Shown here in pieces: positions 988-30,902 of a stretch of 32,006 nucleotides of DNA. The position numbers and the translations under genes were made by a program. The notes under the pieces are model-generated. The model was not told the origin of the DNA and searched no databases. It saw only the letters and a program-made list of their open reading frames with translations. The DNA is from a virus. The first letter of the stretch is position 1, and every line of letters begins with the position of its first letter. The stretch covers positions 1 through 32,006 of IMG/VR virus record IMGVR_UViG_3300037587_000334; one strand, given 5' to 3'.

Positions 988-991
988 CAAC

Positions 992-3058: not shown

Positions 3059-3068
3059 ATAAAATTTA

Positions 3069-3952: not shown

Positions 3953-3963
3953 AGGAACATCCC

Positions 3964-5241: not shown

Positions 5242-5253
5242 TAACCCAATAAT

Positions 5254-5280: not shown

Positions 5281-5292
5281 GAGGATAAGAAA

Positions 5293-5829
5293 ATGGCTTT
5301 TGATTCTACTGGTTTAAAAGCAATGGGTGGCAAAGGTAAAGCCTTTGATAAGGGTAAGATGTTTGCTTATACAACCTCCGATGCGATGGCAACGGTGCGA
5401 GCCTCTGGGTATTTCGATGGTATCTCATCCGAATTGGATGCTGAGTATTTCATTGCGGTGAAGGCATCAGACGGCGTGAGTCTTTTAGCGCTAACGCGAG
5501 ACTCTACCGGGCTGATTCTTACCACCGACACGAACATCCAGGCAATCACTGGTGCTGGCGCTGTTGATGTTATCACCGGCGTGACTCAGTTCACCTCTGA
5601 CGGTGCAGCACAGGCATTGACTATCGCAGATGGGTATATTGGCCAACGAAAGATCGTTGTTCATGTAGTTGATGGAGGTAGTGGCGTACTAACCCCGGCG
5701 AATGGACTTGGGTACTCGACTATCACTTTCACGACTGCTGGCGAAGCTGTTGAGTTGATGTTCCTAGCAGGTGGATGGGCAGTAATCGGGTTTGGCGGCC
5801 TCACCGCTACACTACCGGCTATCGCTTAA
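5293..5829 (+). CDS. Putative capsid decoration or minor virion protein
   Basis: 178 residues, not part of the P22 core order. The N-terminus (GLKAMGGKGKA, MFAYTTSDAMATV, then ASGYF) resembles a group of small phage proteins often encoded right after coat genes, recognised from memory and without a named family. The rest is rich in T, V, G and A, predicted mostly beta, with no membrane segment or catalytic motif. It sits between two terminator-like hairpins, so it may be expressed at a level separate from coat and tail genes. GAGGA lies 7 bases before the ATG. A surface decoration or cement role is an inference from position and composition. Confidence 0.7.
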   Translation: MAFDSTGLKAMGGKGKAFDKGKMFAYTTSDAMATVRASGYFDGISSELDAEYFIAVKASDGVSLLALTRDSTGLILTTDTNIQAITGAGAVDVITGVTQFTSDGAAQALTIADGYIGQRKIVVHVVDGGSGVLTPANGLGYSTITFTTAGEAVELMFLAGGWAVIGFGGLTATLPAIA

Positions 5830-5847
5830 TTGGCACCATAACCAATC

Positions 5848-5872
5848 AAGGGGCTTCGGCCCCTTCGTTCTG
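5848..5872 (+). terminator. TTCG-loop terminator hairpin
   Basis: AAGGGGC (5848-5854) pairs with GCCCCTT (5859-5865) around a TTCG tetraloop, a very stable 7-bp stem. The following CGTTCTG is a poor T tract, so it may act as a partial terminator or as an RNA-stabilising hairpin. It lies 19 bases after the stop of the preceding gene. Confidence 0.6.
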
Positions 5873-5891
5873 ACTGATGAGTGATAAACCA

Positions 5892-6029
5892 ATGAGTGAT
5901 AAACCTAAATTTACGATCTGGGTAAAAGAGAACAAGACCGAGATCAAGTTAAACGACGCGCCCGCAACGATTGCCCAAGCGAAAGCGAATGGCTGGAAAC
6001 GTAAAGCAGGCCGTAAAGCAGCGGAATAG
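5892..6029 (+). CDS. Small basic hypothetical protein
   Basis: 45 residues, lysine rich (C-terminal WKRKAGRKAAE), no membrane segment. The start is ambiguous: a 15-bp direct repeat duplicates the start region, giving an in-frame ATG at 5877 (50 residues, beginning MSDKPMSDKP) and another at 5892. Neither has a good Shine-Dalgarno. It lies between the decoration-like gene and the gp4-like adaptor gene in the same direction. No family recognised; a minor head or DNA-contacting role is possible from its charge, but this is a guess. Confidence 0.6.
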   Translation: MSDKPKFTIWVKENKTEIKLNDAPATIAQAKANGWKRKAGRKAAE

Positions 6030-6035
6030 AGCACA

Positions 6036-6054
6036 GCCCGAGCCATTATCGGGC
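6036..6054 (+). other. Intergenic hairpin before gp4-like gene
   Basis: GCCCGA (6036-6041) pairs with TCGGGC (6049-6054) over a 7-base loop. There is no T tract, so this is probably an RNA-stabilising or processing hairpin rather than a terminator. Confidence 0.4.
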
Positions 6055-6073
6055 ACTAGCACAGGGTTCTAGC

Positions 6074-6508
6074 ATGGCTACAGCACAGTATTTCGTAGAC
6101 AGGGCGATGTCTAGAGTCGGGATCAAGACAGCAGAGATAAGCCTTGAGCCGCCAGAGGCGCAAACAGGGCTTGATCTGCTTAACGATATGATGAGTTCAT
6201 GGGAGGTTGTGCGGCCTATTGGGTTTGTGGCAGCAGAAAATCTAGACGCTGCTGTCCGCATCCCGAGGTTTGCGTTCGGAGCCGTGGTAGACAACCTCGC
6301 AATTCTTATTGCACCAGAATTTCAGAAGGCTGTCAGTGTCGAGCTAGCGGCCACGGCGCGCGGTCTAAAAGACGACATGCGCACGGCGTTAGTTAAAATC
6401 AAACGTGTACAATACCCGTCAACACTGCCAACAGGATCAGGCAACCAGTGTCATGATTCGTTTTTGGATGATCGGTTCTTTCCTGCTGACATAGAGAAGA
6501 ACTTCTAA
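6074..6508 (+). CDS. Head-to-tail adaptor, P22 gp4-like
   Basis: 144 residues against 166 in P22 gp4. It keeps the hallmark YPSTLPTGSGNQ near the C-terminus (P22: YPSRMPTGSGN) and VVDNLAILIAPEF (P22: VFHNLACRIAPDY). An N-terminal helix holds the conserved ALxxLG-like and EPPEAQTGLDLLNDMMSSW segments. It would form a ring below the portal, closing the packaged head and giving the platform for tailspikes and gp10. The stop overlaps the next start as TAATG, so the two tail-machine proteins are probably translationally coupled, fitting their joint assembly. Confidence 0.9.
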   Translation: MATAQYFVDRAMSRVGIKTAEISLEPPEAQTGLDLLNDMMSSWEVVRPIGFVAAENLDAAVRIPRFAFGAVVDNLAILIAPEFQKAVSVELAATARGLKDDMRTALVKIKRVQYPSTLPTGSGNQCHDSFLDDRFFPADIEKNF

Positions 6509-7980
6509 TGCCGCGCGTACCCTTAGAGATAGGCACAGGATTCTATCAGAGCGCGTCTCTGCCCTTATCTGCTCAAAGGTGTATCAACCTATACCCTGTC
6601 ATCCCTCAAGCCACAGCGTTAAACCAGCGCTCTCTGTTCGGCTGTCCTGGCACTAAGACACATCCGACTACCGGCGCAACTATTACGGGCTCTAATCGTG
6701 GCTCGCAAGTCATGAAGGGGGTTGGTTATTTTATTAACGGATCACGGCTTTATTCTGTGACTACCGCAGGTGTGGTTGTTGATATCGGCACCGTAACAGG
6801 ATCGGGCAGAGTTTCACTGGCCAACAACGGCCAGTTTCTTGTAATCGTAGCACCAGGCGGAGATGCATTTGCTTATGACAACGTTGCAGACACAATTACT
6901 CAAATCACAGATGTCGATTTCATTACGTCTAGTACAGTCGTCTTTAAAGATGGCTTCTTTGTATTCAGTGCCGCAGATGGCAGCGTGTTTTTCAATTCTG
7001 CCCTCAATGACCCTTTTACATATGACGCGCTCGACTTCGGAACCGCCGAAATCAACCCCGACCGAATAGTAGCCCTACACGTTAACCACAACGAGTTGTT
7101 TGTTGAGGGTGAGAAGACAGGGGAGTTATTCCAGAATATAGGCGGATCAGGTTTCCCGTTTCAGCGCATACCGGGTGCGAATATCCAGAAAGGATGCTAT
7201 GCAAGATTCACGCTTGCAGAGTTTGACAATACGTTTGTATTTGTTGGCGGTGGCGAGAACGAGCAGGCGGCTGTATGGAAGGTGACAGGTTCAAGTTCTG
7301 TGCAGAAGATTTCGACGAGTGCGATTGACAACGCTATTCAGCAGTTTACTGAAGCTGAGATTTCAGCGTCTTTCTCTTGGGTGTACGCAGAGGGCGGCGA
7401 CTTCTTTGTTGGGTTCACGTTTGTAAGCTCTAGAATCCCCTCTAAGACGTTTGTTTATGATGCGACCACCTCAGCACTAGCTGGGCAATCAACATGGCAT
7501 GAGCGGCAGTCTGGAGTCACTGATAATAGGTGGCGGGTTAACTCCATAATGCGGCTAGGTGGCAAGTTGTTAGTTGGTGATCAAATCGATGGCAGAATTG
7601 GCGAGTTGGATTTAGAAACATTTGATGAATATGGAGAGGCTTTATTCTGGCTTAAGTCTACAGCACCATTTTCCAATCAGGGAAAAACATCGTTCTTTGG
7701 CGAAGTAGAGTTATTTATGCAGGCAGGCGTAGGTCTAACGGTCGGCCAAGGTTCTGATCCTGTTGTACGAATGGCGTTCTCAGATGAAGGAGGAGAGCCG
7801 GGAACCTTCTCCAGTGAGTTCAGCCGCAACTATGGTAAAATCGGAAAACGTAAACAGCGCACTATTTGGCGCAGGCAAGGCAATATCCCTAATTCACGAG
7901 TTTTACAATTTAGCGGAACAGACCCAGTTAAGCGCAATATTCTCAAGCTGGAAGCCAACGCAGAAGGAGGCACACAATGA
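6508..7980 (+). CDS. Tail hub / packaged-DNA stabilisation protein, P22 gp10-like
   Basis: 490 residues (P22 gp10: 472). Shared patterns with P22 gp10, from memory, include SGRVSLANNGQ (P22 SGRVSMAHG), an IxxLHVNHNELFVEGEKTGELF block matching the IGIGTWRDFIVCFGSSTIEYF region, QKGCYARF, and a TFVYDATTS segment before a conserved Trp. The predicted fold is an all-beta propeller. It would follow gp4 in the tail and seal the DNA channel. It starts inside the gp4-like stop (TAATG) and ends in an ATGA overlap with the next gene, continuing the coupled run. Confidence 0.88.
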   Translation: MPRVPLEIGTGFYQSASLPLSAQRCINLYPVIPQATALNQRSLFGCPGTKTHPTTGATITGSNRGSQVMKGVGYFINGSRLYSVTTAGVVVDIGTVTGSGRVSLANNGQFLVIVAPGGDAFAYDNVADTITQITDVDFITSSTVVFKDGFFVFSAADGSVFFNSALNDPFTYDALDFGTAEINPDRIVALHVNHNELFVEGEKTGELFQNIGGSGFPFQRIPGANIQKGCYARFTLAEFDNTFVFVGGGENEQAAVWKVTGSSSVQKISTSAIDNAIQQFTEAEISASFSWVYAEGGDFFVGFTFVSSRIPSKTFVYDATTSALAGQSTWHERQSGVTDNRWRVNSIMRLGGKLLVGDQIDGRIGELDLETFDEYGEALFWLKSTAPFSNQGKTSFFGEVELFMQAGVGLTVGQGSDPVVRMAFSDEGGEPGTFSSEFSRNYGKIGKRKQRTIWRRQGNIPNSRVLQFSGTDPVKRNILKLEANAEGGTQ

Positions 7981-8240
7981 CGCACATCATACCTCCTAGA
8001 CGAGGCGAGGTTTTATCCAACAGAGGAATTGGCACCACTCGCTTGATGGAGTATCTAGAGCGGCTGACTGCAACTGTTAACGAATCTTCTGACGCCGTAG
8101 ATGCCTCTATTATCCAGAATCTTTCGGCGGCAGTATCCGCTCTGCAAGAACAAATAGGGTCTGGCCAGCCGTTAACATGGGATTGCGATAGTTTAACGTG
8201 GGATTCTACTGAGTTCACATTTGATATGGATGAGGCGTAA
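7977..8240 (+). CDS. Small virion-associated protein with coiled coil and LTWD repeats
   Basis: 87 residues. Residues 20-62 look like an amphipathic helix or coiled coil (MEYLERLTATVNES through SALQEQIG). The C-terminal part holds an imperfect repeat, PLTWDCDSLTWDS then TEFTFD, typical of short phage tail-module proteins. It begins in ATGA overlap with the gp10-like gene and ends in TAATG overlap with the next. This is where P22 and Sf6 encode the tail needle, so a needle-plug role is possible but not shown. Function unknown. Confidence 0.75.
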   Translation: MTHIIPPRRGEVLSNRGIGTTRLMEYLERLTATVNESSDAVDASIIQNLSAAVSALQEQIGSGQPLTWDCDSLTWDSTEFTFDMDEA

Positions 8241-9493
8241 TGGCTCAGCAGATAATTAATATAGGCGCAGCAGCCAACGACAGAACTGGCGACACTTGGC
8301 GTACTGGTGGCGATAAGATCAATGACAACTTCACGGAGTTGTTTGATTTAGTAGCTTCTGGGTCGAGGGTTATTGTTAGCGAGTTATCGGACTTTCCCGC
8401 CCCGGCCGCAGGGGTTATTACCTTGTTGGCGAGCACTCAATACTTCCTAACTGCTAATATAACTCTAGGGACAAATAGAATTGTGTGGGCCGACTCATCA
8501 GCAATCTCTAGCATAGAGTCCACGATAATTAGCCTGACCTACACCGGCACAGGAGATATGTTCACCTTCTCCGATACCACGGCCCGTATTAACAACATCA
8601 CCCTGGATGCCCCTAACGGAAGGTTATTCAATTGGACTGATACGACAACGAAGATAGGTCGATTCAACGATGTGACGGTTCTCTCTTGTGACAAAATAGG
8701 CCGATTTAATGGCACATCAGGAATATTGCGGTTCACTAACTTCTCTCCCGCAACAGTAACAACAGACGGGCTTGAGTTTCTTGGTAATTTCAGAAACCTT
8801 CTTTGGGAGGTGTCTGCGTTTACTATCTCGGCGGGGGCAATATTCAACCTAGGGACAGCCACCTTCGATTCGTTTATTGCTGATACAATTCTAGCAACCC
8901 TCAATGGCTCTTCTAATCTCATCAGTGGCGCAGCGTCCTCGGCAAATATCAATACGGGTGGCTCAGGCCTGATCAAAGTTATGCGCATATCTGGAGCAGG
9001 GACGCCATTAAGCGGGCTATCTGTTAGTGATGCACTATGGGAATTCAGGCAAAACGATGACATAGCAGACACAAGAGCTGACGGACTACTATCGATGCAG
9101 TCGAACGCAACGGACACTGTAATAGCGGCAGCGGGAACACCTGTCCTAGTAGCTGGCACATGGGTCGTGGAGCGAGAGAGTCAGTTCACAGGGACGGCAG
9201 CAGGCCGGTTAACGTATAACGGTGGTAAAGACACCACAGTGCCAATCACCGCCTCATTAACCGTAGAGCCAACTTCGGGTGGCGCGGTAAACATATCGGT
9301 AGAGATCGCTGTAAACGGATCTGTAATAGCAAACTCTGAACGCACTGCTAATGCTTCGTCTGGCAATCCCACATCAATAACTGTTCCTTGGCAGGAAGTA
9401 TTGTCCACGACGGATTTTGTTGAAGTCTTCGTCTCAAACGAGACGACCACAGTGGATGTTCTCGTTTCTAGCGCAATATTGAGGATTAACTGA
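8240..9493 (+). CDS. Putative tail fibre/needle-like virion protein
   Basis: 417 residues. The N-terminus INIGAAANDRTGDTW followed by KINDNFTELF is a tag shared by many phage fibre and baseplate-attached proteins. Residues about 60-290 are rich in short T/N/G/I repeats, suggesting a beta-helix. Residues about 310-417 have alternating hydrophobic strands ending in AILRIN, compatible with a jelly-roll tip domain. No catalytic residues can be assigned. Its position between the gp10-like gene and the ejection-type genes suggests a replacement for the P22 needle gp26, or an extra fibre. TAATG overlap at the start and TGATG at the end suggest coupling. Confidence 0.75.
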   Translation: MAQQIINIGAAANDRTGDTWRTGGDKINDNFTELFDLVASGSRVIVSELSDFPAPAAGVITLLASTQYFLTANITLGTNRIVWADSSAISSIESTIISLTYTGTGDMFTFSDTTARINNITLDAPNGRLFNWTDTTTKIGRFNDVTVLSCDKIGRFNGTSGILRFTNFSPATVTTDGLEFLGNFRNLLWEVSAFTISAGAIFNLGTATFDSFIADTILATLNGSSNLISGAASSANINTGGSGLIKVMRISGAGTPLSGLSVSDALWEFRQNDDIADTRADGLLSMQSNATDTVIAAAGTPVLVAGTWVVERESQFTGTAAGRLTYNGGKDTTVPITASLTVEPTSGGAVNISVEIAVNGSVIANSERTANASSGNPTSITVPWQEVLSTTDFVEVFVSNETTTVDVLVSSAILRIN

Positions 9494-9828
9494 TGGCTAC
9501 TGTAGTATTGGTTAATGGTGCCCAAAATACCGTAGCGGACACAGTGCAGGCTTTCTACACAGCGCCTGCCGATAAGGCAGGCACCGTCATAACCGCATTC
9601 ACAGCAACCAACAACACAGACTCGAATAAAACGTACAGAGCCTACATATTTGCTCCCGGTGCCACAACAGCAGAGGCGACAACACCGTTAAAGATATTAG
9701 TTATAGATGCTTTCGACCCTGGGAATGCAATTGTCAATCACTTAATACCAGCTGGCGGGACTTTAAGAATGGAAAGCAGCTTTGCGGACTCAGTTGCTTA
9801 CCGAGTAACAGGCAACGAACTGTCATAG
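9493..9828 (+). CDS. Small beta-rich virion protein
   Basis: 111 residues, starting inside the stop of the fibre-like gene (TGATG). Composition (V, T, A, N) and alternating pattern suggest an Ig-like or jelly-roll beta sandwich, e.g. the stretch TVITAFTATNNTDSNKTYRA followed by GNAIVNHLIPAGGTLRM. Such proteins are common near phage tail tips, but no family is recognised. It may bind or cap the preceding fibre protein (inference from coupling). Confidence 0.7.
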   Translation: MATVVLVNGAQNTVADTVQAFYTAPADKAGTVITAFTATNNTDSNKTYRAYIFAPGATTAEATTPLKILVIDAFDPGNAIVNHLIPAGGTLRMESSFADSVAYRVTGNELS

Positions 9829-9837
9829 GGCAATATT

Positions 9838-10563
9838 ATGATTTGGAATGACGACAAGATAAACCGCCTGATGTCGTTTGGCATGATGCATGGTATCGCT
9901 GGCCCAGGTGGCGAGGGTAATGCTGCTGCTGCCAGCGGCGGTGATAGCGAAGGAGGTAGCGATTCAGGGTTTGGTGCCGCTGACCTGTCTGTTGATCTAG
10001 GCGGCGGTCTTAGTGTTGGTATTGACGGTCAGACTGGTGATGTCACCGGGTTCTCTGGCCCTGGAGTAGAAGGCGGAGTAGAAGGCGCAACGGCAATCGC
10101 TGAAGGACTGGAGACCGCAGCCCCGTCAGCGTTTGGAGATTTCCTGTCGAGCCTAACAAGCAAGCAAAAAGGGGCAGCCATAGGGGCGCTCGCTGGAACC
10201 CTTTTGGGCGTCGGGCCATTGGCCGGTGCCACAGTTGGCTCTAGATTTGGGCGGAAATCTGATGACGCGCCAACACAAGCGCCACCAGGAGGGTTTGCGC
10301 CTACCCAAGCAGCACCGGGTGCCGTATCACCAGCAGCAGGGGTTGCGCTTGGCGGATCACAGCTTGGCGGACTACCAGGCGAAGGCGTTGGAGGGGGCGG
10401 TGTAGTTGGCCAGCCAGCTCAACAACTAGCAGCAGCAGGGCGCCAATCAGGAATAGCAGCACCACCGGCGATTAACCCATTTCTACCAAAACAGAATCAA
10501 TTTCTAAACGGGTTGCCAACGGTGAACCTTGGACAATTCCCCAATTCCCTAGGGAGGGTTTAA
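9838..10563 (+). CDS. Glycine-rich putative ejection/internal virion protein
   Basis: 241 residues with very high Gly, Ala and Pro content. A helical hydrophobic segment SKQKGAAIGALAGTLLGVGP (about residues 107-126) resembles a glycine-zipper membrane element, and the C-terminal half is low-complexity Pro/Gly/Gln. In P22 the same interval holds gp14/gp7, needed for the ejection apparatus. The glycine-zipper-like segment suggests membrane insertion during DNA entry, but no family is recognised. The stop is followed after one base by the next start. Confidence 0.65.
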   Translation: MIWNDDKINRLMSFGMMHGIAGPGGEGNAAAASGGDSEGGSDSGFGAADLSVDLGGGLSVGIDGQTGDVTGFSGPGVEGGVEGATAIAEGLETAAPSAFGDFLSSLTSKQKGAAIGALAGTLLGVGPLAGATVGSRFGRKSDDAPTQAPPGGFAPTQAAPGAVSPAAGVALGGSQLGGLPGEGVGGGGVVGQPAQQLAAAGRQSGIAAPPAINPFLPKQNQFLNGLPTVNLGQFPNSLGRV

Positions 10564-10564
10564 C

Positions 10565-11158
10565 ATGGTTGATTTCTTAGACCCTACAGGCGCACAGGAT
10601 GCGGCTTTACAAGCCGGAGGAATACAGGCCGGAGCCGCGCAGGCGGCAATACCTCTACAATTAGAGGCATTCGAGGGGGCACAACAACGCCTTGCTCCAT
10701 TTGAGCAGGTAGGACAAGCCGCATTAGGTAGTCGTGCAGCTCTGGCTGGTCTGGGTGGCATTGAGGGGCAGCAGGCCGCATTTGCTCAGATTACAGAGTC
10801 GCCCGGTCAAAAGTTCATCCGTGAACGACAACAACGTGCACTACTACGAAACTCTTCTGCAATTGGTGGGTTAGGTGGAGGTAACATCAGGACAGCGTTA
10901 CTGGAACAAGGCACCGGCTTTGCACTACAGGACATCAACGCTCAACGGCAAGAACTAGCCCAGTTGTCAGGCGGTGGATTACAAGCAGGTACGTTCTTAG
11001 GTGCTGCAGGGCTAGAAACAGCTAGCACTGTTGGCGACTTAACCCAAGCAGAAGCTGCGGCGCGCGCAACAGGTATACTAGGCGCACAACAAGCACAGGC
11101 GTCAAACCTTGAGCAGGCTATCGGCCTTGGAACCACATTAGCGGATATCTTCGGGTGA
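10565..11158 (+). CDS. Ejection-type (DNA transfer) protein, P22 gp7-like by position
   Basis: 197 residues, Ala/Gln/Gly rich and helical. The central block ESPGQKFIRERQQRALLRN followed by GGLGGGNIRTAL is a pattern seen in many podovirus DNA-transfer or internal proteins (recognised from memory). GGGAGGG precedes the ATG by 6 bases, one of the better ribosome sites of the late operon. In P22, gp7, gp20 and gp16 are packaged and ejected with DNA to make a trans-envelope channel; this gene is first of the corresponding trio here. Confidence 0.72.
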   Translation: MVDFLDPTGAQDAALQAGGIQAGAAQAAIPLQLEAFEGAQQRLAPFEQVGQAALGSRAALAGLGGIEGQQAAFAQITESPGQKFIRERQQRALLRNSSAIGGLGGGNIRTALLEQGTGFALQDINAQRQELAQLSGGGLQAGTFLGAAGLETASTVGDLTQAEAAARATGILGAQQAQASNLEQAIGLGTTLADIFG

Positions 11159-11162
11159 TCTC

Positions 11163-12509
11163 ATGGTATTAGCACCATTACAATTCAGCGGGCGGGGTTT
11201 GACGCCTGATGTGCTTGGCGGTATCCAGCAGGGCCAGCAGGTGCTTCAGGGTGAGAATATCCTTCAGCAGCAGCGGCAGGGGATAGAAGCTACCCAGCGC
11301 AAGCAAGGGCAGCAACAACAGGCGAGTCAGTTAATCCGTCGTCAGCAAGCCGGGGAGCAGATCCAAACAGGCGCGGAATTGGCCCAGCTTATGGTTGATA
11401 ATCCTCAGTTAGCTGAAAACGTACTGAAGGCTTCCGGTATCTCAACTGAGTTTCAAAAGAACGATCTTGCACAGTTCGGTTTCCAGCTTGAGCAAGCCAA
11501 TCCAGCACAACAGCAGCAGCTTATCCAACAACGTATTCAGGCAGTACAAGCGAGAGGCGGCAACCCACAAGACACGGCAGCGCTGGTTGGTGCCGATCCT
11601 CAGAAGGTTGGGCAATTTGCGCGGACGGTTCAACTCGCGGCTTTGAGCAATGCAGAGAGGCTAGAGATTGCGCGGGGTGGGAAACAAGGACTAGCCTCTG
11701 CCAAGACATTGATTAACCCTGACGGCTCCACTATCCAGGCATTACCGAATGGCCAAGTAGATGTTCGCAACCCTGCGGGAAAGGTTGTAACTGGCGATGA
11801 GCGGCTTGCGGTTCTGAAGCAGGCTGCGGAACAGCAGCGAATTAAGAAACAGCAGGAAGCAGATATCAAGGTAGGTCAGGCAGGTGGCGAGGCGGCGGCA
11901 AAGGCTGAAGTTAAGCTTGAGACTGAGCCAGAGATACAAGCAAGGGTTAAACAAGCTTCTACGGAGGCGGCAAAGAAAGAGATCAGAGAACAGGCTTCTA
12001 TCGATAGAGGTTTAACTGCTGCCGACTCAACCGCTAACATTCGCAGGGCTATATCACTACTAGACACTGTTGCTACTGGCGGCATTGATGCAGTCAGAGT
12101 TAGAGCAAAGCAGATATTCGGCATAGAAGGCGCAGACGAGGGAGAGTTATCCTCAAACCTAGGCAAGGCGATTGTTGCCCAATTGCGCGAAACATTCGGA
12201 GCTGCATTCACCAAGTCAGAAGGTGACAAGTTAGAAAGGATCGAGGCGGCATTTGGCAAATCACCAGCGGCTAACCGCAGGCTGCTAAACAACACACTGA
12301 AGACAATGGAGCGTCTAGCGAACCGAGGCCTGGAAGCAGCCGAATCTAGAGAGGATGACTTTGCTATTCAGTCAATCAGTGAGGCTCTGACATTCGAACT
12401 TGGCGACGAGAAGCAAGCAGGGGCCGGAGGTCAGGATGTGATCACGGCCACTAACCCAACAACAGGCGAGAAAGTGCAGTTAATTAACGGGCAATGGGTA
12501 CCTCTATAA
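11163..12509 (+). CDS. Ejection-type protein, P22 gp20-like by position
   Basis: 448 residues (P22 gp20: about 470), Gln/Ala/Lys rich with long predicted helices. Residues 20-75 are a Q-rich low-complexity helix, and residues about 215-290 are a KEAEVK-type charged coiled coil. No catalytic motif. Length, composition and the position between the gp7-like and gp16-like genes support the assignment, not sequence identity. The stop TAA overlaps the ATG at 12509 (TAATG). Confidence 0.7.
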   Translation: MVLAPLQFSGRGLTPDVLGGIQQGQQVLQGENILQQQRQGIEATQRKQGQQQQASQLIRRQQAGEQIQTGAELAQLMVDNPQLAENVLKASGISTEFQKNDLAQFGFQLEQANPAQQQQLIQQRIQAVQARGGNPQDTAALVGADPQKVGQFARTVQLAALSNAERLEIARGGKQGLASAKTLINPDGSTIQALPNGQVDVRNPAGKVVTGDERLAVLKQAAEQQRIKKQQEADIKVGQAGGEAAAKAEVKLETEPEIQARVKQASTEAAKKEIREQASIDRGLTAADSTANIRRAISLLDTVATGGIDAVRVRAKQIFGIEGADEGELSSNLGKAIVAQLRETFGAAFTKSEGDKLERIEAAFGKSPAANRRLLNNTLKTMERLANRGLEAAESREDDFAIQSISEALTFELGDEKQAGAGGQDVITATNPTTGEKVQLINGQWVPL

Positions 12510-14167
12510 TGGCGACATTACCTGAAGGATTTGTGCTTGATCAACCACAACAGACAGCACTAGCGCCTCCTGCTGGGTTTAAGATAGATCAACCCACAAC
12601 GCAGCAGCCCGGCGCACCAGATACCCAGCAGCAAGCAGCACAGCAACCAGAAGCCGACTTACTAAGGCAGGGTGGGCAGCTTGCCGCTGAGAACATACCG
12701 GGCTTCAGCGCTGCTGCAGAGTTTGCTGGCGGTGCAAACGAAGCGATTGTTGAGTTGGTAGACTTTTTCGGAACTAAGCCGATCAATGCAATTTTAGAAT
12801 TGTCAGGCTCCGATGCTAGGATTCCAGAAATAGCAGAGACAGAATTCGGACAGCGCATAACTGCCCAACAACTGCCAGAAGGATTGGCGCAAGATGTACT
12901 AAGAAGCGCAGGACAGCTTTCAACTCAAGCGGCTGGATTTGGTGGCTTGGTGAGAGGAATAGCAAAACAACTGCCTAAATTATCAGCCTTGACTGGCGGA
13001 ACCGTGTCTGCAGACATTGCAGCCGGGGCCGGTGCTGGCGTAGGTGCTGAGTTAGGCGAGGAGGTTGGTGGTGAGACCGGAAGAATTATTGGTTCTGTTG
13101 CTGGTGCTTTCGCTCCTGGGGCTAGTCTGATAGCGGCTAAGCAATCAGCCAAGGGGCTTATTGCAGCAGCGTCGCCAGATGTTGCCTTGATCAAAAAAGC
13201 AGCCAGAGATGTATATAAGCGTATTGATGGACTTGGCGTCACAGTCAAGCCTCAAGCAATCGAGGGCCTTAGTAAAGGTTTAGCCGCGACTGTTAGGAAA
13301 GAGGGTTTTAATGCCAGAATTCACCCAAAAGTGGCCGCCGCGCTAGATGAGTTCCAAGCAGCCGCAGCAAGTGGGCCCCAGACGCTATCAGAAGTTGACA
13401 TCCTGCGCCGTGTTGCACAGTCAGCAGCCAAAAGTATAGAGCCAGATGAGGCCCGACTGGGGTCGATAATGGTCAACAAGATCGATGATTTCCTAGATGG
13501 TCTAGGGCCTGCTAGCTTAACGGGCGGCAAACAATCAGACGCAGGCGTTCTCTTTAAGCAGGCTCGCGGCCTTTGGGGCCGAGCTAAGAAAGGTGAGTTG
13601 ATAGAAGAGGCTTTCACGAAGGCAGACCTGGGGGCTAGCGGTTTTGAAAACGGGTTGAGGATACAGTTCAGATCGATCTTGAATAACAAAAAGAAGTCGA
13701 AGGGTTTTAACCAGGATGAGCTTTCGGCTATGCGCAAGGTGGTTAAGGGCGGCCCCGTAGAGAATATAGCCAAATTACTAGGAAGATTCGGATTCACTGA
13801 AGGGCAGGCTACTAGCTCACTGATGGGATACCTAGGGGTGGCTGGCGGCGCGGCGGTCGGGGGAGTGCCTGGAGCTATAGCGGTTCCATTCTTGGGACAG
13901 TTATCTAAGAACCTAGCGCAAAGGCTTACACGCAAGAATGCCGAGTTTGCATCACAAGTCGTTAGAGCAGGCAAAGACGGTAAAAAGATAGCCGAGGCAT
14001 ACATTAAAAACACGCCTAAAAGCCAGCGAAGTACTGCAGAGTTGACGCAACTATTAGTCAACACGAAGGCCGCTCTCGGCGGGATTAAAAACTCACCAAA
14101 CAAGATATTTAGCGATTCAGCGTTTTTTGCAGCGTTCTTAGCTGATCAAAATCAGGAGCAACAATAA
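12509..14167 (+). CDS. Ejection-type protein, P22 gp16-like by position
   Basis: About 552 residues (P22 gp16: 609). The N-terminus has two related elements, LPEGFVLDQP and APPAGFKIDQP, a repeat common at the start of phage internal virion proteins. Gly/Ala-rich hydrophobic stretches occur near residues 175-215 and 435-460 (AGGAAVGGVPGAIAVPF), plausible for membrane contact during DNA delivery. I chose ATG 12509 because it overlaps the preceding stop as TAATG, like other starts in this operon; an in-frame ATG at 12494 would add five residues. The long antisense frame here is a shadow. Confidence 0.7.
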   Translation: MATLPEGFVLDQPQQTALAPPAGFKIDQPTTQQPGAPDTQQQAAQQPEADLLRQGGQLAAENIPGFSAAAEFAGGANEAIVELVDFFGTKPINAILELSGSDARIPEIAETEFGQRITAQQLPEGLAQDVLRSAGQLSTQAAGFGGLVRGIAKQLPKLSALTGGTVSADIAAGAGAGVGAELGEEVGGETGRIIGSVAGAFAPGASLIAAKQSAKGLIAAASPDVALIKKAARDVYKRIDGLGVTVKPQAIEGLSKGLAATVRKEGFNARIHPKVAAALDEFQAAAASGPQTLSEVDILRRVAQSAAKSIEPDEARLGSIMVNKIDDFLDGLGPASLTGGKQSDAGVLFKQARGLWGRAKKGELIEEAFTKADLGASGFENGLRIQFRSILNNKKKSKGFNQDELSAMRKVVKGGPVENIAKLLGRFGFTEGQATSSLMGYLGVAGGAAVGGVPGAIAVPFLGQLSKNLAQRLTRKNAEFASQVVRAGKDGKKIAEAYIKNTPKSQRSTAELTQLLVNTKAALGGIKNSPNKIFSDSAFFAAFLADQNQEQQ

Positions 14168-16408
14168 ATGGCCTCTCGTTTCGTATTACCTAACGCCGAT
14201 GTCGGGAACGGGATAGCTCCCAGCGATGGAGCGCAGCTGTTCTTCTTCGCCACTGGCACATCTACGCCAAAAGCCACCTTTAAAGACGCTGCTGGTGCTA
14301 CTCCAAACTCTAACCCCGTAATAGCTGATAGCGATGGAGTGTTTCCTGATATCTTCATCTCAGGCACGTACAAGGTGCAACTGAAGGATAAGAACGGCGT
14401 GGGGGTCGGTTTTGTAGAAACAGACCCAGTAGATGAGTTTTCATTAGAGTCATCTGTTACCGCTGCGGTGCCGTTAAACGACAAGCGATATGCACCGAAG
14501 TTCGCCACTATCGCAGCGATGGTAGCGGCCAGCCCTGTTGCTCTGGATGGCTTGGTAGTCGTTCCAGCAGTCGGGATGATCATAGCCATAGATGATTACG
14601 CCACAGGTAACAACTCAGGCCTCTTGTTTGGCCTAGTAGTCACAGGAGGCACAGGCACTGCAGATGGCGGTTCGTTTATCGATTTGGATAATGGGCTTCA
14701 GTGGCGTCAGAACTTCCCGAGCCAGATTACAACCAAGATGTTTGGTGCCAGGCTGGACGGCGTACAAGACGTTACAGCGGCAACCCAAGCAGCATTCACT
14801 TATGCAGAGTCTACTGGCAATAATGAGCTTGTCCTTCTTCCTGCTGGAAGGCATCTTATAACTGATACCATCAATACTTACGAAGGCGCTAAGTTCGAAG
14901 GGCAAAACATCGATTACGGCGGTATCGCAGGAGCAACCAGCTTTCCTGACCAGCTTTCAGACGCGCGCGGCACAGTGATCATATTTAACCCATCTTCTCA
15001 GAAATCCTTGTTCGTTCCTGCGCTACCAAAAGGTGGCTCGGCTGCTTGGTCAGGCATAGGCATACGCAACATGAGTATCTGGGGTAACTCATCAATGGAT
15101 GATTATCACAGGGGTATTTTCGGGGATACCGATCCGGTTGTGACTGATAGCCTTTATGCTATCGACTTCAAAGAGGTTCAATTTTCTAATGTTGAAAACG
15201 TCGCGATTATGGGATTCGTCTCTGGAGTTCGCGAAGCAGATCGCAGCCAAGGGAATACATTTAACCGAGTTAACATTCAGCGCTGCCGTGAAGCGTCTAT
15301 TCTATACGGAGAGATTACTACCGGCGTAGCTGCAACATCATCGGTATGGAATCAATGCGTATTACGCATCTGTTTGATGGTTGTCGAAGAGCAGGAAGCC
15401 GTTAACCAAGCAAATAACCTACAGCCCAGATTCACAGACTGCTACTTTGAGGACATGGCGTCGTATGGTTTCCGGTTAGGTAAATCTATCCAGAATTGGA
15501 CGCTCACTAACTGTTATGCTGAGGCAGTCCCGTCTGATACGGGTGTAGCAGATCGAGCCATGTTTAGTGTTGGTAAGTTTGGCGTAGGGACAGTTAATCC
15601 GACGGTTGGGCTTAACGTCATAGGCGGTCAATATGCAGGCTTTAGTACTGGGGTCTTCCTGGATATTGATGCGAGTAATGGTGTTAATCTAATTGGATGT
15701 GAAGCCAAGAGATATACGACTGTCTTTAACCCAACAGCCAACACCCGCGACCGCAGCATCTTCATGGCTGGTTTCACATACAATGCGACAGCTACGTTTA
15801 ACGGAGGCACAGCAGGCAAATTTGTCGGGACGTACAAGACAACGGGCTTGGATAACCCATCAACTACAGTTCTGATAGATAACGAGTTCATAGGCAATGC
15901 TGTTTCTGGCTCAACGCTTAACTTGCTTGGAGGAATTATCCGACTAGGTGACGGGTCATCGACTTCAGCCAACCCAGGGGCGGATAACACACAGAATTTA
16001 GGCACAGGGGCTTTGCGCTGGAAGGAGGTCTTCGCAGTTGCTCCCGCTATCAACACATCTGATGCACGCTCTAAGCAGCAGGACAGACCTTTAAATGAGG
16101 CCGAGAAGGCTGTAGCGGTTAAAGCCAAAGCATTGCTTAAGACGTACAAATTTAATCACGCTGTCGAAGATAAAGGCGATGGAGCAAGGATTCACGTCGG
16201 CATCTATGTTCAGGAATTGATAGCTGCGTTTGAATCTGAAGGTCTTGATGCTTTTGACTACGCGCTGGTCTGCTATGACGAGTGGCCAGAGCGTACCGAT
16301 AAGGACATTGCAGAGGATGGCACAGTGACCGAGGTGGTAACGCCAGCGGGTAACTCATATGGTGTGCGGTATTCTGAGTTACTCGCCTTTATCATCGCTG
16401 CTATTTAG
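14168..16408 (+). CDS. Tailspike with beta-helix and S74 self-cleaving chaperone
   Basis: 746 residues. An N-terminal virion-binding domain (about 1-95) begins SRFVLPNADVGNGIAP and contains the GAQLFFFATGTSTPKATF block common to many phage spikes. A linker is followed by a pectate-lyase-like start, TTKMFGARLDGVQD then TAATQAAF (about 192-215), and a right-handed beta-helix to about residue 600. The last part has a peptidase S74 intramolecular chaperone: LRWKEVFA then NTSDARSKQ, with expected cleavage between S631 and D632 and release of about 115 residues. The spike would bind and probably depolymerise host surface polysaccharide; the substrate cannot be read. AGGAG precedes the start by 8 bases. 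Confidence 0.9.
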   Translation: MASRFVLPNADVGNGIAPSDGAQLFFFATGTSTPKATFKDAAGATPNSNPVIADSDGVFPDIFISGTYKVQLKDKNGVGVGFVETDPVDEFSLESSVTAAVPLNDKRYAPKFATIAAMVAASPVALDGLVVVPAVGMIIAIDDYATGNNSGLLFGLVVTGGTGTADGGSFIDLDNGLQWRQNFPSQITTKMFGARLDGVQDVTAATQAAFTYAESTGNNELVLLPAGRHLITDTINTYEGAKFEGQNIDYGGIAGATSFPDQLSDARGTVIIFNPSSQKSLFVPALPKGGSAAWSGIGIRNMSIWGNSSMDDYHRGIFGDTDPVVTDSLYAIDFKEVQFSNVENVAIMGFVSGVREADRSQGNTFNRVNIQRCREASILYGEITTGVAATSSVWNQCVLRICLMVVEEQEAVNQANNLQPRFTDCYFEDMASYGFRLGKSIQNWTLTNCYAEAVPSDTGVADRAMFSVGKFGVGTVNPTVGLNVIGGQYAGFSTGVFLDIDASNGVNLIGCEAKRYTTVFNPTANTRDRSIFMAGFTYNATATFNGGTAGKFVGTYKTTGLDNPSTTVLIDNEFIGNAVSGSTLNLLGGIIRLGDGSSTSANPGADNTQNLGTGALRWKEVFAVAPAINTSDARSKQQDRPLNEAEKAVAVKAKALLKTYKFNHAVEDKGDGARIHVGIYVQELIAAFESEGLDAFDYALVCYDEWPERTDKDIAEDGTVTEVVTPAGNSYGVRYSELLAFIIAAI

Positions 16409-16415
16409 AAATAGC
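16400..16415. terminator. Palindrome at convergent gene ends, possible bidirectional terminator
   Basis: GCTATTT-AG-AAATAGC is a perfect 7-bp inverted repeat placed exactly over the overlapping stop codons of the tailspike (plus) and HNH gene (minus). It is AT-rich and has no long T tract on either strand, so its strength as a terminator is doubtful, but no other terminator separates the two converging operons. Confidence 0.4.
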
Positions 16416-16830
16416 CTGTAAACTCTACCCGCTCTGCGTTGAACTCCCCGCGCAGATCCACCATCTTCTGATGCTCGTCGCGGTAGTGCTTGGCAATCGG
16501 CCCTTTACCCTTCGTCTTCCTTGCTTCCCGTCCTAGAGAGGTGTCGCGCATCTTCTCAAACAGCAAGTCTTGCTCGGCATCTGTCAATACTTCCTCTCTG
16601 CGTTGTTGCGTTCCTCCCTCTAGGAAGTGGCACCCTGTGCACAGGCACTCCGCGTTCATCGGATCGAACCGAATGGACCAGTTACCCCTTGAATGGTGGT
16701 GAGAGCACTCTATGCCATTCCTAGAGCCTTCAGGGTAGTATTTGCCGCATCGTTCACAAGTCCAGTTTGCTCGCTCCCTGATGCACTTAGAGAAAGCCTT
16801 ATCGGCCTGCGTTGTCTTTATAGCACCCAT
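16405..16830 (-). CDS. HNH-type nuclease, NinG/recombination-endonuclease-like
   Basis: 141 residues. Zinc-type pairs C25xxC28 and C64xxC67 frame ECSHHHSRG (His 44-46) and RFDPMNAECLCTGCH, the layout of treble-clef HNH proteins such as NinG/Rap-like recombination nucleases. It probably cuts DNA; a role in packaging or in resolving replication intermediates is inferred. I chose ATG 16830, placed TGA-G-ATG after the previous stop with GGTGG upstream; an in-frame GTG at 16839 has its Shine-Dalgarno too close. It is the last gene of the minus-strand operon and overlaps the tailspike 3' end by 4 bases. Confidence 0.8.
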   Translation of the reverse strand: MGAIKTTQADKAFSKCIRERANWTCERCGKYYPEGSRNGIECSHHHSRGNWSIRFDPMNAECLCTGCHFLEGGTQQRREEVLTDAEQDLLFEKMRDTSLGREARKTKGKGPIAKHYRDEHQKMVDLRGEFNAERVEFTGYF

Positions 16831-16831
16831 C

Positions 16832-17035
16832 TCATCCACCCTTCATTTTTATCGGCTTAATGGTCACGAAGAACGGCGCGCCATCCAGATCGATATCTAG
16901 ATCGGCAGCACCAAATCCAATCCCGCCACCGGTTACCTTTGCGCCCTTAGCCTTCAGAGCTTCAGCCAGCCACTCGCGCATATTAAAGAACGCCTCAACG
17001 TCCATTTCATCTAGGCTTTCACCGAAGTCGCCCAT
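16832..17035 (-). CDS. Small conserved-looking phage protein
   Basis: 67 residues, starting ATGGGC with AGGAGG about 5 bases upstream. The N-terminal helix (DEMDVEAFFNMREWLAEALK) is followed by a glycine turn and beta strands (DLDIDLDGAPFFVTIKP). Soluble, no cysteines. No family recognised. It is coupled to the HNH gene (stop TGA, one base, ATG). Confidence 0.75.
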   Translation of the reverse strand: MGDFGESLDEMDVEAFFNMREWLAEALKAKGAKVTGGGIGFGAADLDIDLDGAPFFVTIKPIKMKGG

Positions 17036-22981: not shown

Positions 22982-23031
22982 CTATAGCGCTCTATGGCGC
23001 TCTATGGCGCTCTATGGCGCTCTATGGCGCT
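22982..23031. repeat. 10-bp tandem repeat, about five copies
   Basis: Four exact head-to-tail copies of TCTATGGCGC occupy 22991-23030, preceded by a diverged copy, CTATAGCGC (22982-22990). On the minus strand the array forms the 5' leader of the 91-residue gene and runs directly into its Shine-Dalgarno. The 10-bp period is close to one helical turn, as in protein-binding iterons. No open frame crosses it. Confidence 0.9.
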
Positions 23032-23050: not shown

Positions 23051-23185
23051 CACAAAAAACCCGTTCCGGTCAAAGCTTGATGGTAGTGTCGATCAACGTC
23101 TAGGTGCGCTAACCGACTCAAGCCTTGCCACAACGGGCTACACCTAGATTATCTGAACCGCTACCAAACGGCTATATCAGATGGG
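23051..23185 (-). ncRNA. Structured non-coding region, attenuator or small-RNA candidate
   Basis: Read on the minus strand: a hairpin (23182-23177 with 23156-23151, plus an inner CCG/CGG pair), then four long-range complementary sets. Helix a pairs 23148-23141 with 23106-23099 (8 bp, TCTAGGTG/CACCTAGA). Helix b pairs 23137-23132 with 23065-23060 (CCCGTT/AACGGG). Helix c pairs 23123-23118 with 23080-23075 (GCTTGA/TCAAGC), with GTCG/CGAC inside it. Helix b ends in TTTTTT (23059-23054). Helix a crosses b and c, so the sets form either a pseudoknot or two exclusive folds, as in transcription attenuators. No gene fits here. All pairs are seen directly; function is inferred. Confidence 0.5.
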
Positions 23186-23187: not shown

Positions 23188-23484
23188 TTACTTCTTTTTA
23201 GAATGTTTCTTTTTGGCCTTGTTGAACGCCTTAACATCAACCTTACTTTTTTTAGTTGGCCCGGAACTGTCTTTTTTGGCTCCCCGGATTTTCCCTGCTA
23301 GGTTGGCGGGTGGATTCTTGACGCCGCCCTTCTCGATCAACGCGATAGTCTTAGGGTCGCGCATAGCGGCTTTGGCGATGGATGTAGCGCTGGCCCCTTT
23401 CTTCCTGGCTGTTGCTATTGCCTTTCGTGTCTTAACTCCTGTCTTCTTGCCAGCTACGCCCTTCTTCGGTTTCGCCACGGTCAT
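23188..23484 (-). CDS. Basic HTH-containing DNA-binding protein
   Basis: 98 residues, about one third Lys/Arg, with lysine-rich ends (KKHSKKK). The core ARKKGASATSIAKAAMRDPK then TIALIEKGGVKNPPANLAGK is an HTH-like pattern found in phage proteins with basic tails, in which the IEkGgxkNPP segment forms the recognition region. The charge suggests DNA or RNA binding, perhaps to the structured region that begins 3 bases after its stop. GAGG precedes the ATG. Family recognised only by pattern. Confidence 0.75.
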   Translation of the reverse strand: MTVAKPKKGVAGKKTGVKTRKAIATARKKGASATSIAKAAMRDPKTIALIEKGGVKNPPANLAGKIRGAKKDSSGPTKKSKVDVKAFNKAKKKHSKKK

Positions 23485-23514: not shown

Positions 23515-24372
23515 CTAATCATTGCATACCACACATGGGTCATTATCACCAACAAACCCGGTAAACAAGTCCCCTTGCCCAACCACGTTGTCCCAAGACC
23601 AAGATCTTCCTAGCCCTGCGATATTTCTGAGATTACCCTCCCTCTTAGCTTTACCCTCCATCTCTAATGCTTTGGCTAAAAGTTCTGGATGATTACGCCC
23701 TAGTTCAAATATTTCATGCGCTTTCATCGACGGGCAGAAATAGCATGAGCTTTTGGGTGGCACAGGCAGGCCAGAATTCATAATCTCAACAATGCAATCA
23801 TCTCTGTCCATTCTCCAATCTACCAAAGGGAAGACGATCTCATATTTCTTGTTCTGATCTTCGACCGACTTAGCTGTGGAGGATAAAAATTGATTTATGC
23901 GGTGGGATTCACCGTAATCAATGCCTATAACACGAATCACCTTTTTTGTTATCTCATCCAGCTTGTTGTACTTGCCCCAGGCATCTTTACAGATTGGGTG
24001 ACGGTTTAAGAATTTAGTGACTTGACGGGTCTTGTGTTTATCTGAGCAGGATGGATTCCCATACGCCTTCGATGGTAAGTCGCCGTTGTTGTAGCAGAAA
24101 TCATAAAGGTCTATAGCTACGCCGTGTTTGTCCGTAGCTTTCACAATGTCTATTCCAGGCCACCCGATAGAGAACAGCCAATTTTGCGTTAGTGCGATAT
24201 CTTGGTACGTCTTGGGAACCTCCCCGCCAGTATCTGCGAAAACAATAATATCGGGTCTAATCCCCTCTCGGTATAACCGGCACAAGATAGACTTACTATT
24301 CACCCCTCCGCCATATGTGACTACGATAGGTGCTCCATCGTCTAAACACGATCTAAAGTCTTTTATTTTCAT
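23515..24372 (-). CDS. PP-loop ATPase, phage PAPS-reductase-like
   Basis: 285 residues. A modified PP-loop TYGGGVNSKSI (residues 19-29) aligns with the SGGxDS pyrophosphate-binding motif. VFADTGGEVPKTY (44-56), SCSDKHKTRQVTKFL (108-122), IGIDYGESHR (149-158) and FPLVDW (181-186) follow the CysH/DndC order, then CYFCPSMK (C210, C213) and a C-terminal CVVC (C280, C283). Such enzymes adenylate a substrate and act in sulfate reduction, tRNA thiolation or DNA phosphorothioation; phage members have no proven substrate. Cys109, 210, 213, 280 and 283 could hold an iron-sulfur cluster. The start overlaps the preceding gene by 20 bases; GAGGT lies upstream. Confidence 0.88.
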   Translation of the reverse strand: MKIKDFRSCLDDGAPIVVTYGGGVNSKSILCRLYREGIRPDIIVFADTGGEVPKTYQDIALTQNWLFSIGWPGIDIVKATDKHGVAIDLYDFCYNNGDLPSKAYGNPSCSDKHKTRQVTKFLNRHPICKDAWGKYNKLDEITKKVIRVIGIDYGESHRINQFLSSTAKSVEDQNKKYEIVFPLVDWRMDRDDCIVEIMNSGLPVPPKSSCYFCPSMKAHEIFELGRNHPELLAKALEMEGKAKREGNLRNIAGLGRSWSWDNVVGQGDLFTGFVGDNDPCVVCND

Positions 24373-24523: not shown

Positions 24524-24718
24524 CTATTCCCCTATGATTCCATCATCTGTTTGATTGCTGCTACTTTCGTGATCCGCTTCCAGATCGCGAGCCTTTTCAC
24601 GCGGGTCGCGAAGGTCTAGTTTTCGCATCTCTTCCATCGCACGATCATGCGCGGTTTGGTTCGGCTGTGTTACCCGGCGTCTGCGGCTGTTTTGTGGAAG
24701 GTATGGGCGCACAGTCAT
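24524..24718 (-). CDS. Small charged protein downstream of replication gene
   Basis: 64 residues, MTVRPYLPQNSRRRR through EEMRKLDLRDPREKARDLEA, highly charged with a basic N-terminus and an acidic Ser/Asn-rich tail. It starts in ATGA overlap with the O-like gene, a position where lambda-type phages encode a helicase loader, but it is too short and has no ATPase motif. Perhaps a replication accessory protein (inference). Confidence 0.7.
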   Translation of the reverse strand: MTVRPYLPQNSRRRRVTQPNQTAHDRAMEEMRKLDLRDPREKARDLEADHESSSNQTDDGIIGE

Positions 24719-25494
24719 ATCCAGTCAATGTTGTGGACGTCCATCACACTGGCAGTCACGGTTTGGCGCGTTTGTGCTTTGTCAGATGGTTGTCGATGCT
24801 GCCCATTGCTGCCCCCTAATCGGTTGTGTACCCAATCTGCTTTCATTGATTTCCATGTTCCCGATTCCCATTCGGTTAGACAGTCATCGAAGCTGTAGCC
24901 CATCTGAGCCGCTTTATCAAACTCCTTAGCCAGTGAGTTAACAACGCGCTGACTAAGTGCACCACCCTTCCCTAACTTTCTTATCCGCTTCATTTCAGAT
25001 ATTTGTTCGTCCGAAGCGTTGAATACAGAGAAATCTACAGCAGGGGTTGGTGGCTTCTCCTTACCCTTATTATCATTCTTTTCTTTCTTTAACTTCTTAA
25101 TAGTGTCCCGTTTCTTGTCCGTCTCTTGTCCGTCTGTTGTACTATCTGTTGTATCATCAGGCTGTTCGGCACCTTGGAATTCGTCATAGTTACAGATAGT
25201 TATCAGGCTTTTTCTCCTGTCTTTCTGTTGTACTATCATTTGTTCGCTTTCAAGCTCACTTAAAAACCGCCTGACCTTTCCTCTTGACCATTTCCAGCGT
25301 TCAGATAGGCGTATTTCTGACCACCCTAGCTGCCCTCTATTTACGGCTATTTTCATGCCGTTGGATCTGATGTAACCCGGCTTGTAATTTGTGAGCATTA
25401 GGATATCAACCCAAGCCTTCCCTCTATCGAATGGCTCAGATGTCCATAGGTCGCTATCCATTAGCTGCCGGTGGAGTTTTATCCAGCCCGGCAT
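24715..25494 (-). CDS. Replication initiator, O-like with winged-helix domain
   Basis: 259 residues. The N-terminus PGWIKLHRQLMDSDLW then FDRGKAWVDILMLTNY and the winged helix (NRGQLGWSEIRLSERWKWSR, then KVRRFLSELESEQMIV, about 52-90) match phage replication-organiser proteins. A Lys/Asp/Thr-rich linker (about 107-150) carries an origin-like repeat cluster in the DNA. The C-terminal part (SDEQISEMKRIRKLGKGGAL and the DCLTEWESGTWKSMKADW element) is typical of phage O/DnaT-like helicase-loading regions. AGGAG lies 7 bases before the ATG. It would open the origin and recruit host DnaB. Confidence 0.87.
   Translation of the reverse strand: MPGWIKLHRQLMDSDLWTSEPFDRGKAWVDILMLTNYKPGYIRSNGMKIAVNRGQLGWSEIRLSERWKWSRGKVRRFLSELESEQMIVQQKDRRKSLITICNYDEFQGAEQPDDTTDSTTDGQETDKKRDTIKKLKKEKNDNKGKEKPPTPAVDFSVFNASDEQISEMKRIRKLGKGGALSQRVVNSLAKEFDKAAQMGYSFDDCLTEWESGTWKSMKADWVHNRLGGSNGQHRQPSDKAQTRQTVTASVMDVHNIDWI
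25113..25237. other. Iteron-like repeats, candidate replication origin
   Basis: Plus-strand reading: TCTTGTCCGTC occurs twice head to tail (25113-25123, 25124-25134), then TGTTGTACTATC (25135-25146), its near copy TGTTGTATCATC (25147-25158), and another exact copy at 25226-25237. An AT-rich pyrimidine tract adjoins it (about 25058-25101). Iterons beside an asymmetric AT-rich stretch inside the initiator gene is the lambda origin plan. The 11-bp unit is not a codon multiple, so the repeat is at DNA level. Confidence 0.5.
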
Positions 25495-30151: not shown

Positions 30152-30391
30152 GGAGAGGATGATGAACTATCGAGATATCAGGGTAGCAAGGGATCAAGCC
30201 GAGCAGGATATTGAAAGGGCCGATCAAGCTGTTCGAGAAGCAGTAAAGCTAATTACAGGCAGACTCAAGTCGGCTGGCGTTAGATGGAACTATCTAGATG
30301 AGCTAAAGCGCGAGCTAAAAGACTACAACATGCAAACAAACTGCTGGAAGGACTAACCAGCCACAAGGGCATAGGGGGAGAGGATGATGAA
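30152..30391 (+). repeat. 15-bp repeated initiation region
   Basis: GGAGAGGATGATGAA occurs at 30152-30166 and 30377-30391, in each case holding the Shine-Dalgarno and a double ATG. The two copies bracket the 64-residue gene between them. Upstream of both copies the similar CCATACAAG / CCACAAGGG stretch also recurs. Confidence 0.75.
30162..30356 (+). CDS. Small helical hypothetical protein
   Basis: 64 residues, MNYRDIRVARDQAEQDIERA then VKLITGRLKSAGVRWNYLDE, almost fully helical. The second ATG (30162) has GGAG 6 bases upstream and is preferred to 30159. No family recognised; it lies between the Gp157-like and the radical-SAM-like genes. A helical adaptor role is possible. Confidence 0.7.
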   Translation: MNYRDIRVARDQAEQDIERADQAVREAVKLITGRLKSAGVRWNYLDELKRELKDYNMQTNCWKD

Positions 30392-30902
30392 TAAGCTACG
30401 GTTAGTGATGTTTGAGGAGTGCAACCGATCATGCGAGGGTTGCTGCAACAAGGACTGGAACTTAAACGGCCTTGATGTGTGTGAAAGCTTTGAAGGCTAC
30501 GACATGATAATGCTGACAGGCGGTGAGCCTATGCTTAGGCCGATGTTGGTCATGCAGATATGTAATGAGATCCGAAGCTGTGGGTCAACGGCAGATATCA
30601 TTCTTTACACAGCGAAGTCTCGACGGGCGATAGATTTGATCGCTATGCTGTTGTGCGTCGATGGTATCACGCTAACGCTGCACGAGCAGTATGATGTTGA
30701 TGCGTTCGTTGAGTTGCAGTCATTTATTTGGAAGTTAGAGAATCCTAACAAATACCACCTTAGGCTGAATGTGTTTTCTAACGTCGATATAACAGGCGTC
30801 AACACCACATGCTGGGAAGTCAAAGAGGGCATTGAATGGATTAAAGACTGCCCCCTGCCTGAGGGTGAGGTAATACAGCGTCTTTGGAGTTACAACCCAT
30901 GA
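30387..30902 (+). CDS. Minimal radical-SAM-like protein
   Basis: 171 residues from the second ATG (GGAG upstream). CNRSCEGCC (C12, C16, C19) is the CX3CX2C iron-sulfur motif of the radical SAM family, and MLTGGEPML (GGEP at 45-48) the SAM-binding GGE motif; LYTAKSRRAIDLI and ITLTLHEQYDVDAF fit later strands of a partial TIM barrel. It is shorter than most family members, as in activating enzymes such as NrdG. Substrate unknown. The gene is coupled by ATGA to the following small exported protein. Proper iron-sulfur assembly would depend on the host. Confidence 0.82.
   Translation: MNKLRLVMFEECNRSCEGCCNKDWNLNGLDVCESFEGYDMIMLTGGEPMLRPMLVMQICNEIRSCGSTADIILYTAKSRRAIDLIAMLLCVDGITLTLHEQYDVDAFVELQSFIWKLENPNKYHLRLNVFSNVDITGVNTTCWEVKEGIEWIKDCPLPEGEVIQRLWSYNP

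Follow-up and report, generated by a model that had tools for sequence, protein, structure and literature searches.

A bulged terminator hairpin complementary to an upstream loop as a candidate attenuator in the early operon of a P22-like phage

Locus and gene neighbourhood

Here, we describe a structured RNA element in IMGVR_UViG_3300037587_000334, a viral contig of 32,006 bases from IMG/VR that was studied over its whole length (positions 1-32,006) and is referred to below as the window. Its plus strand carries genes for terminase, P22-type portal, scaffold, coat, head closure and tail proteins (97-16408), and the early operon runs on the minus strand from 26198 to 16405, with the RNA element placed between the replication genes and ninG (Table 1). 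The same gene layout is found in Vibrio phage 1.211 and Shewanella phage X14, and in the nin region of lambda terminators are similarly situated between the replication genes and ninG. The first-pass annotation had placed the element between a basic HTH protein gene and an unknown gene, which agrees with the gene content found here, the HTH resemblance of the upstream protein being weak. Neither of these two flanking genes has protein relatives in IMG/VR or among annotated phages, and no close relatives of the nearby PAPS-reductase-like protein were found in the same collections. Additionally, no sigma-70-like site was found on the minus strand between 24365 and 18470, and the genes from 22975 to 16405, up to ninG, thus probably depend on read-through, phage-specific promoters still being possible. 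Next to the element, the tandem repeats GCGCCATAGA (22982-23031, minus strand) run into the Shine-Dalgarno sequence of the next gene and represent a possible operator or slippage array. The rightward early operon encodes, at 30384-30902, a small 4Fe-4S single-cluster (radical-SAM-like) protein (Pfam Fer4_12).

Table 1 Coordinates of genes and RNA features in and around the element
Feature	Position	Strand	Remarks
DnaD/O-like helicase loader	24715-25494	minus	Early operon
PAPS-reductase-like protein	23515-24372	minus	Early operon
Basic lysine-rich protein, 98 aa, orphan	23188-23484	minus	Upstream gene; weak HTH resemblance; stop codon adjoins the RNA
5' hairpin	23151-23182	minus	AUCUGA-UAUA-GCCG..CGGU-UCAGAU, loop with UGGUAG; MFE structure
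Pseudoknot strand 1, UGGUAG in the 5' hairpin loop	23161-23166	minus	Six Watson-Crick pairs with 23086-23081
Helix a, 5' strand UCUAGGUG	23141-23148	minus	In the linker between the two hairpins; exact complement of 23106-23099; not conserved
Helix b, 5' strand (terminator stem base)	23132-23138	minus	3' strand 23065-23059
Helix c, 5' strand (terminator stem middle, 10+3 bp)	23118-23130	minus	3' strand 23080-23067
Helix d, 5' strand (inner helix, 11 bp)	23107-23117	minus	3' strand 23098-23088
Apical loop CACCUAGA, 8 nt	23099-23106	minus	Also 3' strand of helix a
3'-arm bulge ACUACCA, 7 nt	23081-23087	minus	21 nt before the U-run
Pseudoknot strand 2, CUACCA	23086-23081	minus	Within the bulge
U6 run	23054-23059	minus	Intrinsic-terminator anatomy; predicted 3' end of terminated transcripts
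Five 10-bp tandem repeats GCGCCATAGA	22982-23031	minus	Between terminator and Shine-Dalgarno sequence of the next gene
Orphan protein, 92 aa	22697-22975	minus	Downstream gene
NinG-like protein	16405-16839	minus	Last gene of the early operon

Fold of the element

The minus-strand RNA from 23182 to 23054 folds at -59.5 kcal/mol, compared with -37.7 +/- 3.6 kcal/mol for shuffled sequences (z -6.0; 0 of 200 shuffles as good). When 120-nt windows covering both strands of the 32 kb are ranked, the element comes first (z -6.3), and the next unrelated one reaches -4.4. The element comprises, in this order, the 5' hairpin (23182-23151), 12 nt of linker and a 31-bp hairpin (23138-23059) followed by U6; in step-wise folding, the 5' hairpin is the preferred structure once about 38 nt of the transcript have been made. 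Several of these parts had been described earlier and were recovered here, namely the upstream hairpin, which is part of the MFE structure, helix b (23137-23132 with 23065-23060, extended here to 7 bp), helix c (23123-23118 with 23080-23075, extended to 10 bp plus 3 bp towards b) and the six Ts after helix b (23059-23054). The earlier description had overlooked the 11-bp helix d, which links b and c into a single 31-bp hairpin with an 8-nt apical loop, and the 7-nt bulge in the 3' arm (23087-23081). Six of the 31 hairpin pairs are G-U, so that the minus-strand RNA is more stable than its complement (-44.6 versus -30.6 kcal/mol, a difference of 14 kcal/mol); this strand-specific stability assigns the structure to the minus-strand RNA and argues for selection having acted on that RNA. 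Since a stable hairpin is followed immediately by a U-run, the main fold is predicted to be an intrinsic terminator, and the earlier notion of a terminator-like minus-strand RNA within an early phage operon is supported.

The bulge and the loop of the 5' hairpin are complementary over six Watson-Crick base pairs, the next position being a C-A mismatch, which is one pair fewer than in the relatives described below (7-8 bp); loop shuffling gives such a match by chance in about 2% of cases. The UGGUAG of the window sits at the same position as the covarying loop of these relatives. With regard to known RNAs, no Rfam family (release 15, gathering threshold) was found in the window, and none over the element in the relatives. 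Identity with the COG3943 RNA (RF02941) was rejected, as the 5' hairpin region reaches 17.5 bits (E 0.64) against a gathering score of 71.8, a chance-level match that leaves the terminator uncovered. ARAGORN reported 0 tRNA or tmRNA genes, in line with the earlier dismissal of a tRNA resemblance.

Relatives and covariation of the loop-bulge pairing

Relatives were collected using seeds that did not include the pseudoknot pairing. A gapped DNA pattern of the stem base, GCCCGTT..AACGGGTTTTTT, returned 12 loci from IMG/VR, of which eight, falling into three sequence groups, feature a 5' hairpin together with a long terminator hairpin whose 3' arm contains a 7-nt bulge complementary to the 5' loop. 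The loop/bulge letters are GUAGAAA/UUUCUAC in two of the three groups and GUCGAAA/UUUCGAU in L099, and L098 (CUGUCAG/CUGACAG), which has an extra inner hairpin, fits the plan. Further members are L301 (GUUGAGU/ACUCAAC), found by searching upstream of the Betaproteobacteria-1 RNA, and L314 (GUUGCAC/GUGCAAC), found with model R1, and a pairing-independent seed downstream of the element added eight that an automatic descriptor picked out and three recognised by eye (L349, L350 and L352), nearly all with differing yet complementary letters. Seventeen phage or prophage sequences follow the plan of a 5' hairpin succeeded by a long terminator hairpin whose 3' arm carries a bulge of 7-8 nt matching the 5' hairpin loop by complementarity; the apical part varies widely among them, while the distance from bulge to U-run stays at 18-21 nt (21 nt in the window). 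Close relatives of the window locus itself were not found, and the covariation evidence comes from other phages and prophages: the DNA of the element has no meaningful similarity to phages and plasmids, the element is absent from the P22-like relatives examined, and close P22-like relatives, as judged by the portal protein, have early regions unrelated to that of the window. Genome searches with models R1-R3 (about 1,570 genome scans in three groups) returned real members only in one Burkholderiales MAG, and the other matches inspected (L315 left out) were plain terminators.

Every one of the 105 pseudoknot cells is paired in the 15 relatives compared, 104 of them by Watson-Crick pairs, whereas shuffles give 61% on average and 0 of 10,000 reach the observed value; a shifted register abolishes the pairing, and for the three relatives found by eye the register was set by complementarity. 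In the structure-fitted alignment A6, from which L098 was excluded, double changes occur at five of the seven loop-bulge pairs and no pair has one-sided changes only. Over the whole structure of A6, there are 100 double-change cells compared with 34.5 after shuffling (0/500), and the covariation is 0.495, compared with 0.192 for shuffled and at most 0.124 for slid sequences (0/500). Cognate loops and bulges share 6-9 bp and non-cognate ones 5 or fewer. The conserved tertiary pairing is that of the 5' hairpin loop with the bulge and not helix a. A background set of 27 further long terminator hairpins, each bulged on the 3' side, served for comparison: bulge size and position matched in four of these, an upstream complement of at least 6 occurred in one, inside a stem 55 nt away, and the bulge matched the loop of an adjacent hairpin in none.

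A sigma-70-like site lies upstream of the element in most relatives, in many of them with the -10 positioned 10-17 nt before the loop, and termination would there release an RNA of about 105-140 nt. The promoter score before the 5' hairpin is 8-10 in most relatives, whereas the window has no promoter just upstream of it (best 5 of 12 matches). The linker comprises only 0-3 nt in L301, L351 and L345 compared with 12 nt in the window, and most relatives are also followed by a second structured RNA, which the window lacks.

The existence of a kissing-bulge phage terminator class, as defined here by A6 and R3, is well supported, and we consider it likely that the window element belongs to it. The element has the long hairpin ending in a U-run (31 bp, U6), the 7-8 nt bulge in the 3' arm 18-21 nt before that run (7 nt and 21 nt) and the complementarity of the bulge to the adjacent 5' loop (6 bp), and it lacks a typical but non-defining feature, the promoter just upstream of the 5' hairpin. 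Counting for membership are thus the size and position of the bulge, its distance to the U-run, the complementarity to the adjacent loop and the first rank that R3 gives to the element within the window, and counting against it are the fewer pairs, the longer linker, the missing promoter and downstream RNA, and the weak scores. Membership is short of proven since the covariance models detect the element only weakly, with E 0.12 for R1, no match for R2, and 15.7 bits at E 0.056 for R3. Stem-base letters common to the window and the L094 group are no evidence in this regard, as these letters served as the search seed.

Candidate mechanism, alternatives and known systems

We lean, by a little, towards reading the element as a conditional intrinsic terminator, that is, an attenuator, gated by loop-bulge docking and located in the leftward-transcribed early operon of a P22-like phage. 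Transcripts of the minus strand coming from the replication genes would contain the 5' hairpin and then the long bulged hairpin, with an end in U6 at 23054, and the 5' loop could dock into the bulge (6 bp) as soon as the latter has left RNA polymerase. Docking would compete with, or time, the closing of the stem base beside the U-run and would thereby set the amount of transcription reaching the genes from 22975 to 16405. About 14 nt of RNA reside inside the polymerase, so the bulge would just have emerged when the U-run is reached, and the constant spacing from bulge to U-run in combination with freely varying loop letters suggests that the pairing is tied to termination and not to a target in trans. 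The docked state might correspond to read-through and the free state to stop or, in the opposite direction, docking might speed up hairpin formation. With low confidence, we prefer docked as read-through, because with linkers of 0-3 nt, as in L301, L351 and L345, docking would need about four basal pairs to be open according to our own estimate of linker reach, which uses A-form geometry with 2.8 A per bp and 6 A per nt.

Further, it seems to us marginally probable that these elements constitute a new class of phage cis-regulatory RNA, in which the docking of an upstream loop into a bulge that keeps a fixed distance to the U-run sets terminator efficiency, and, jointly with that reading, that the class includes promoter-proximal leaders, in phage contigs and a Burkholderiales prophage, as well as a form within an operon, as in the window.

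The element could also be an ordinary strong intrinsic terminator of the lambda tR2 type in a nin-like early region, read through by general antitermination and with loop-bulge and helix-a complements that arose by chance. Its site between the replication genes and ninG agrees with this, a closed 31-bp hairpin with U6 would suffice, the loop-bulge match of the window taken alone has a chance level of about 2%, and terminators are common in the early genes of lambdoid phages (PMC9378689). We nevertheless judge this rather unlikely, as bulge size, position, the 21-nt distance and complementarity jointly fit a covarying class and the adjacent-loop match is found in 0 of 27 background terminators. 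Less probable again is a reading in which the element functions in trans as a discrete small RNA (about 130 nt), or persists as a stable 3' fragment, the terminator supplying no more than its 3' end and the pseudoknot serving stability: the promoter directly preceding the 5' hairpin of the relatives and the predicted release of about 105-140 nt point in this direction, but the window element is without such a promoter (best 5/12), and what is conserved is the pairing and the U-run distance, with no seed sequence and with loop letters that vary freely.

Quite improbable, in our view, is the switch proposed by the first-pass annotation, in which helix a acts as an antiterminator against a terminator formed by b and c. 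Helix a does exist as an exact 8-bp match between linker and apical loop (23148-23141 with 23106-23099), and in step-wise folding it is part of the best structure of the nascent RNA, but only at a length of about 86-98 nt, after which helices d, c and b displace it as the transcript lengthens. It is incompatible with the 31-bp hairpin, the best fold with a forced reaching -41.5 compared with -59.5 kcal/mol, and at a penalty of about 18 kcal/mol once the full hairpin is made it would be transient at most and no equilibrium rival of b and c. Helix a is also not kept in the relatives. A pseudoknot of a, b and c together was ruled out on geometry, as a single nucleotide would need to bridge the hairpin base and the apical loop. 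By our estimate, the exact 8-nt match has a chance probability of about 0.001, and helix a may for this reason be a kinetic intermediate, possibly slowing hairpin closure in the window phage only. Of the attenuator or riboswitch logic proposed earlier, tertiary-pairing or switch logic is thus retained, relocated to loop and bulge, while a ligand-binding riboswitch has no support.

Among known systems, attenuators and phage leader RNAs such as HK022 put come nearest to the element, which differs from them in its defining loop-bulge pairing. With terminators and attenuators in the early operons of lambdoid phages it shares a G+C-rich stem, a U-run and the place in an early operon before ninG, and it differs in its 31-bp stem and in the fixed 7-nt 3' bulge complementary to the adjacent 5' loop. 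HK022 putL and putR are likewise phage early leader RNAs with two stem-loops that act on transcription elongation. The put RNA is about 70 nt long and V-shaped, contains an RNA triplex and contacts RNAP, and no pseudoknot or kissing pair is mentioned for it (PMC9378689). Compared by description, put is an RNAP-bound two-stem RNA for factor-independent antitermination and is not itself a terminator. In the part of the open literature covered, no loop-bulge terminator is described. The T-box riboswitch antiterminator offers a resemblance only: there too, a helix of the terminator region carries a 7-nt bulge that base-pairs with another RNA element. Its partner is the 3' end of a tRNA, whereas in the window it is a loop of the same RNA, and an Rfam match is lacking. 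If our reading is true, different phage groups share an RNA device that controls early transcription by tertiary pairing inside a terminator, with this pairing replacing a protein or a rival secondary structure as the control. The conserved distance of 18-21 nt between bulge and U-run is a sharp prediction of such a class, which is absent from Rfam 15.

The surroundings of the relatives yielded some further observations. PAPS-reductase-like genes adjoin the element in both the window (23515-24372) and L345 (reverse strand 1833-2678, the gene being judged by eye from sequence), which may be a coincidence. Many of L094, L314 and L340-L358 carry a second conserved non-coding stretch after the terminator (GGGTTACACGGTAAGC and flanks, about 100 nt or more), for example on the minus strand of L344 about 70 nt past the U-run; the copies in L094 and L314 have no Rfam match, and the stretch is possibly another structured leader RNA. 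In L097/L102/L105 and L301, the Betaproteobacteria-1 RNA (RF02932) is located directly downstream of the element, a separate motif that is absent from the window and has other copies without the element upstream. Its positions directly after the kissing-bulge terminator, at 2566-2691 in L102 and 123-242 in L301, suggest that the RF02932 motif can be a phage early-leader element.
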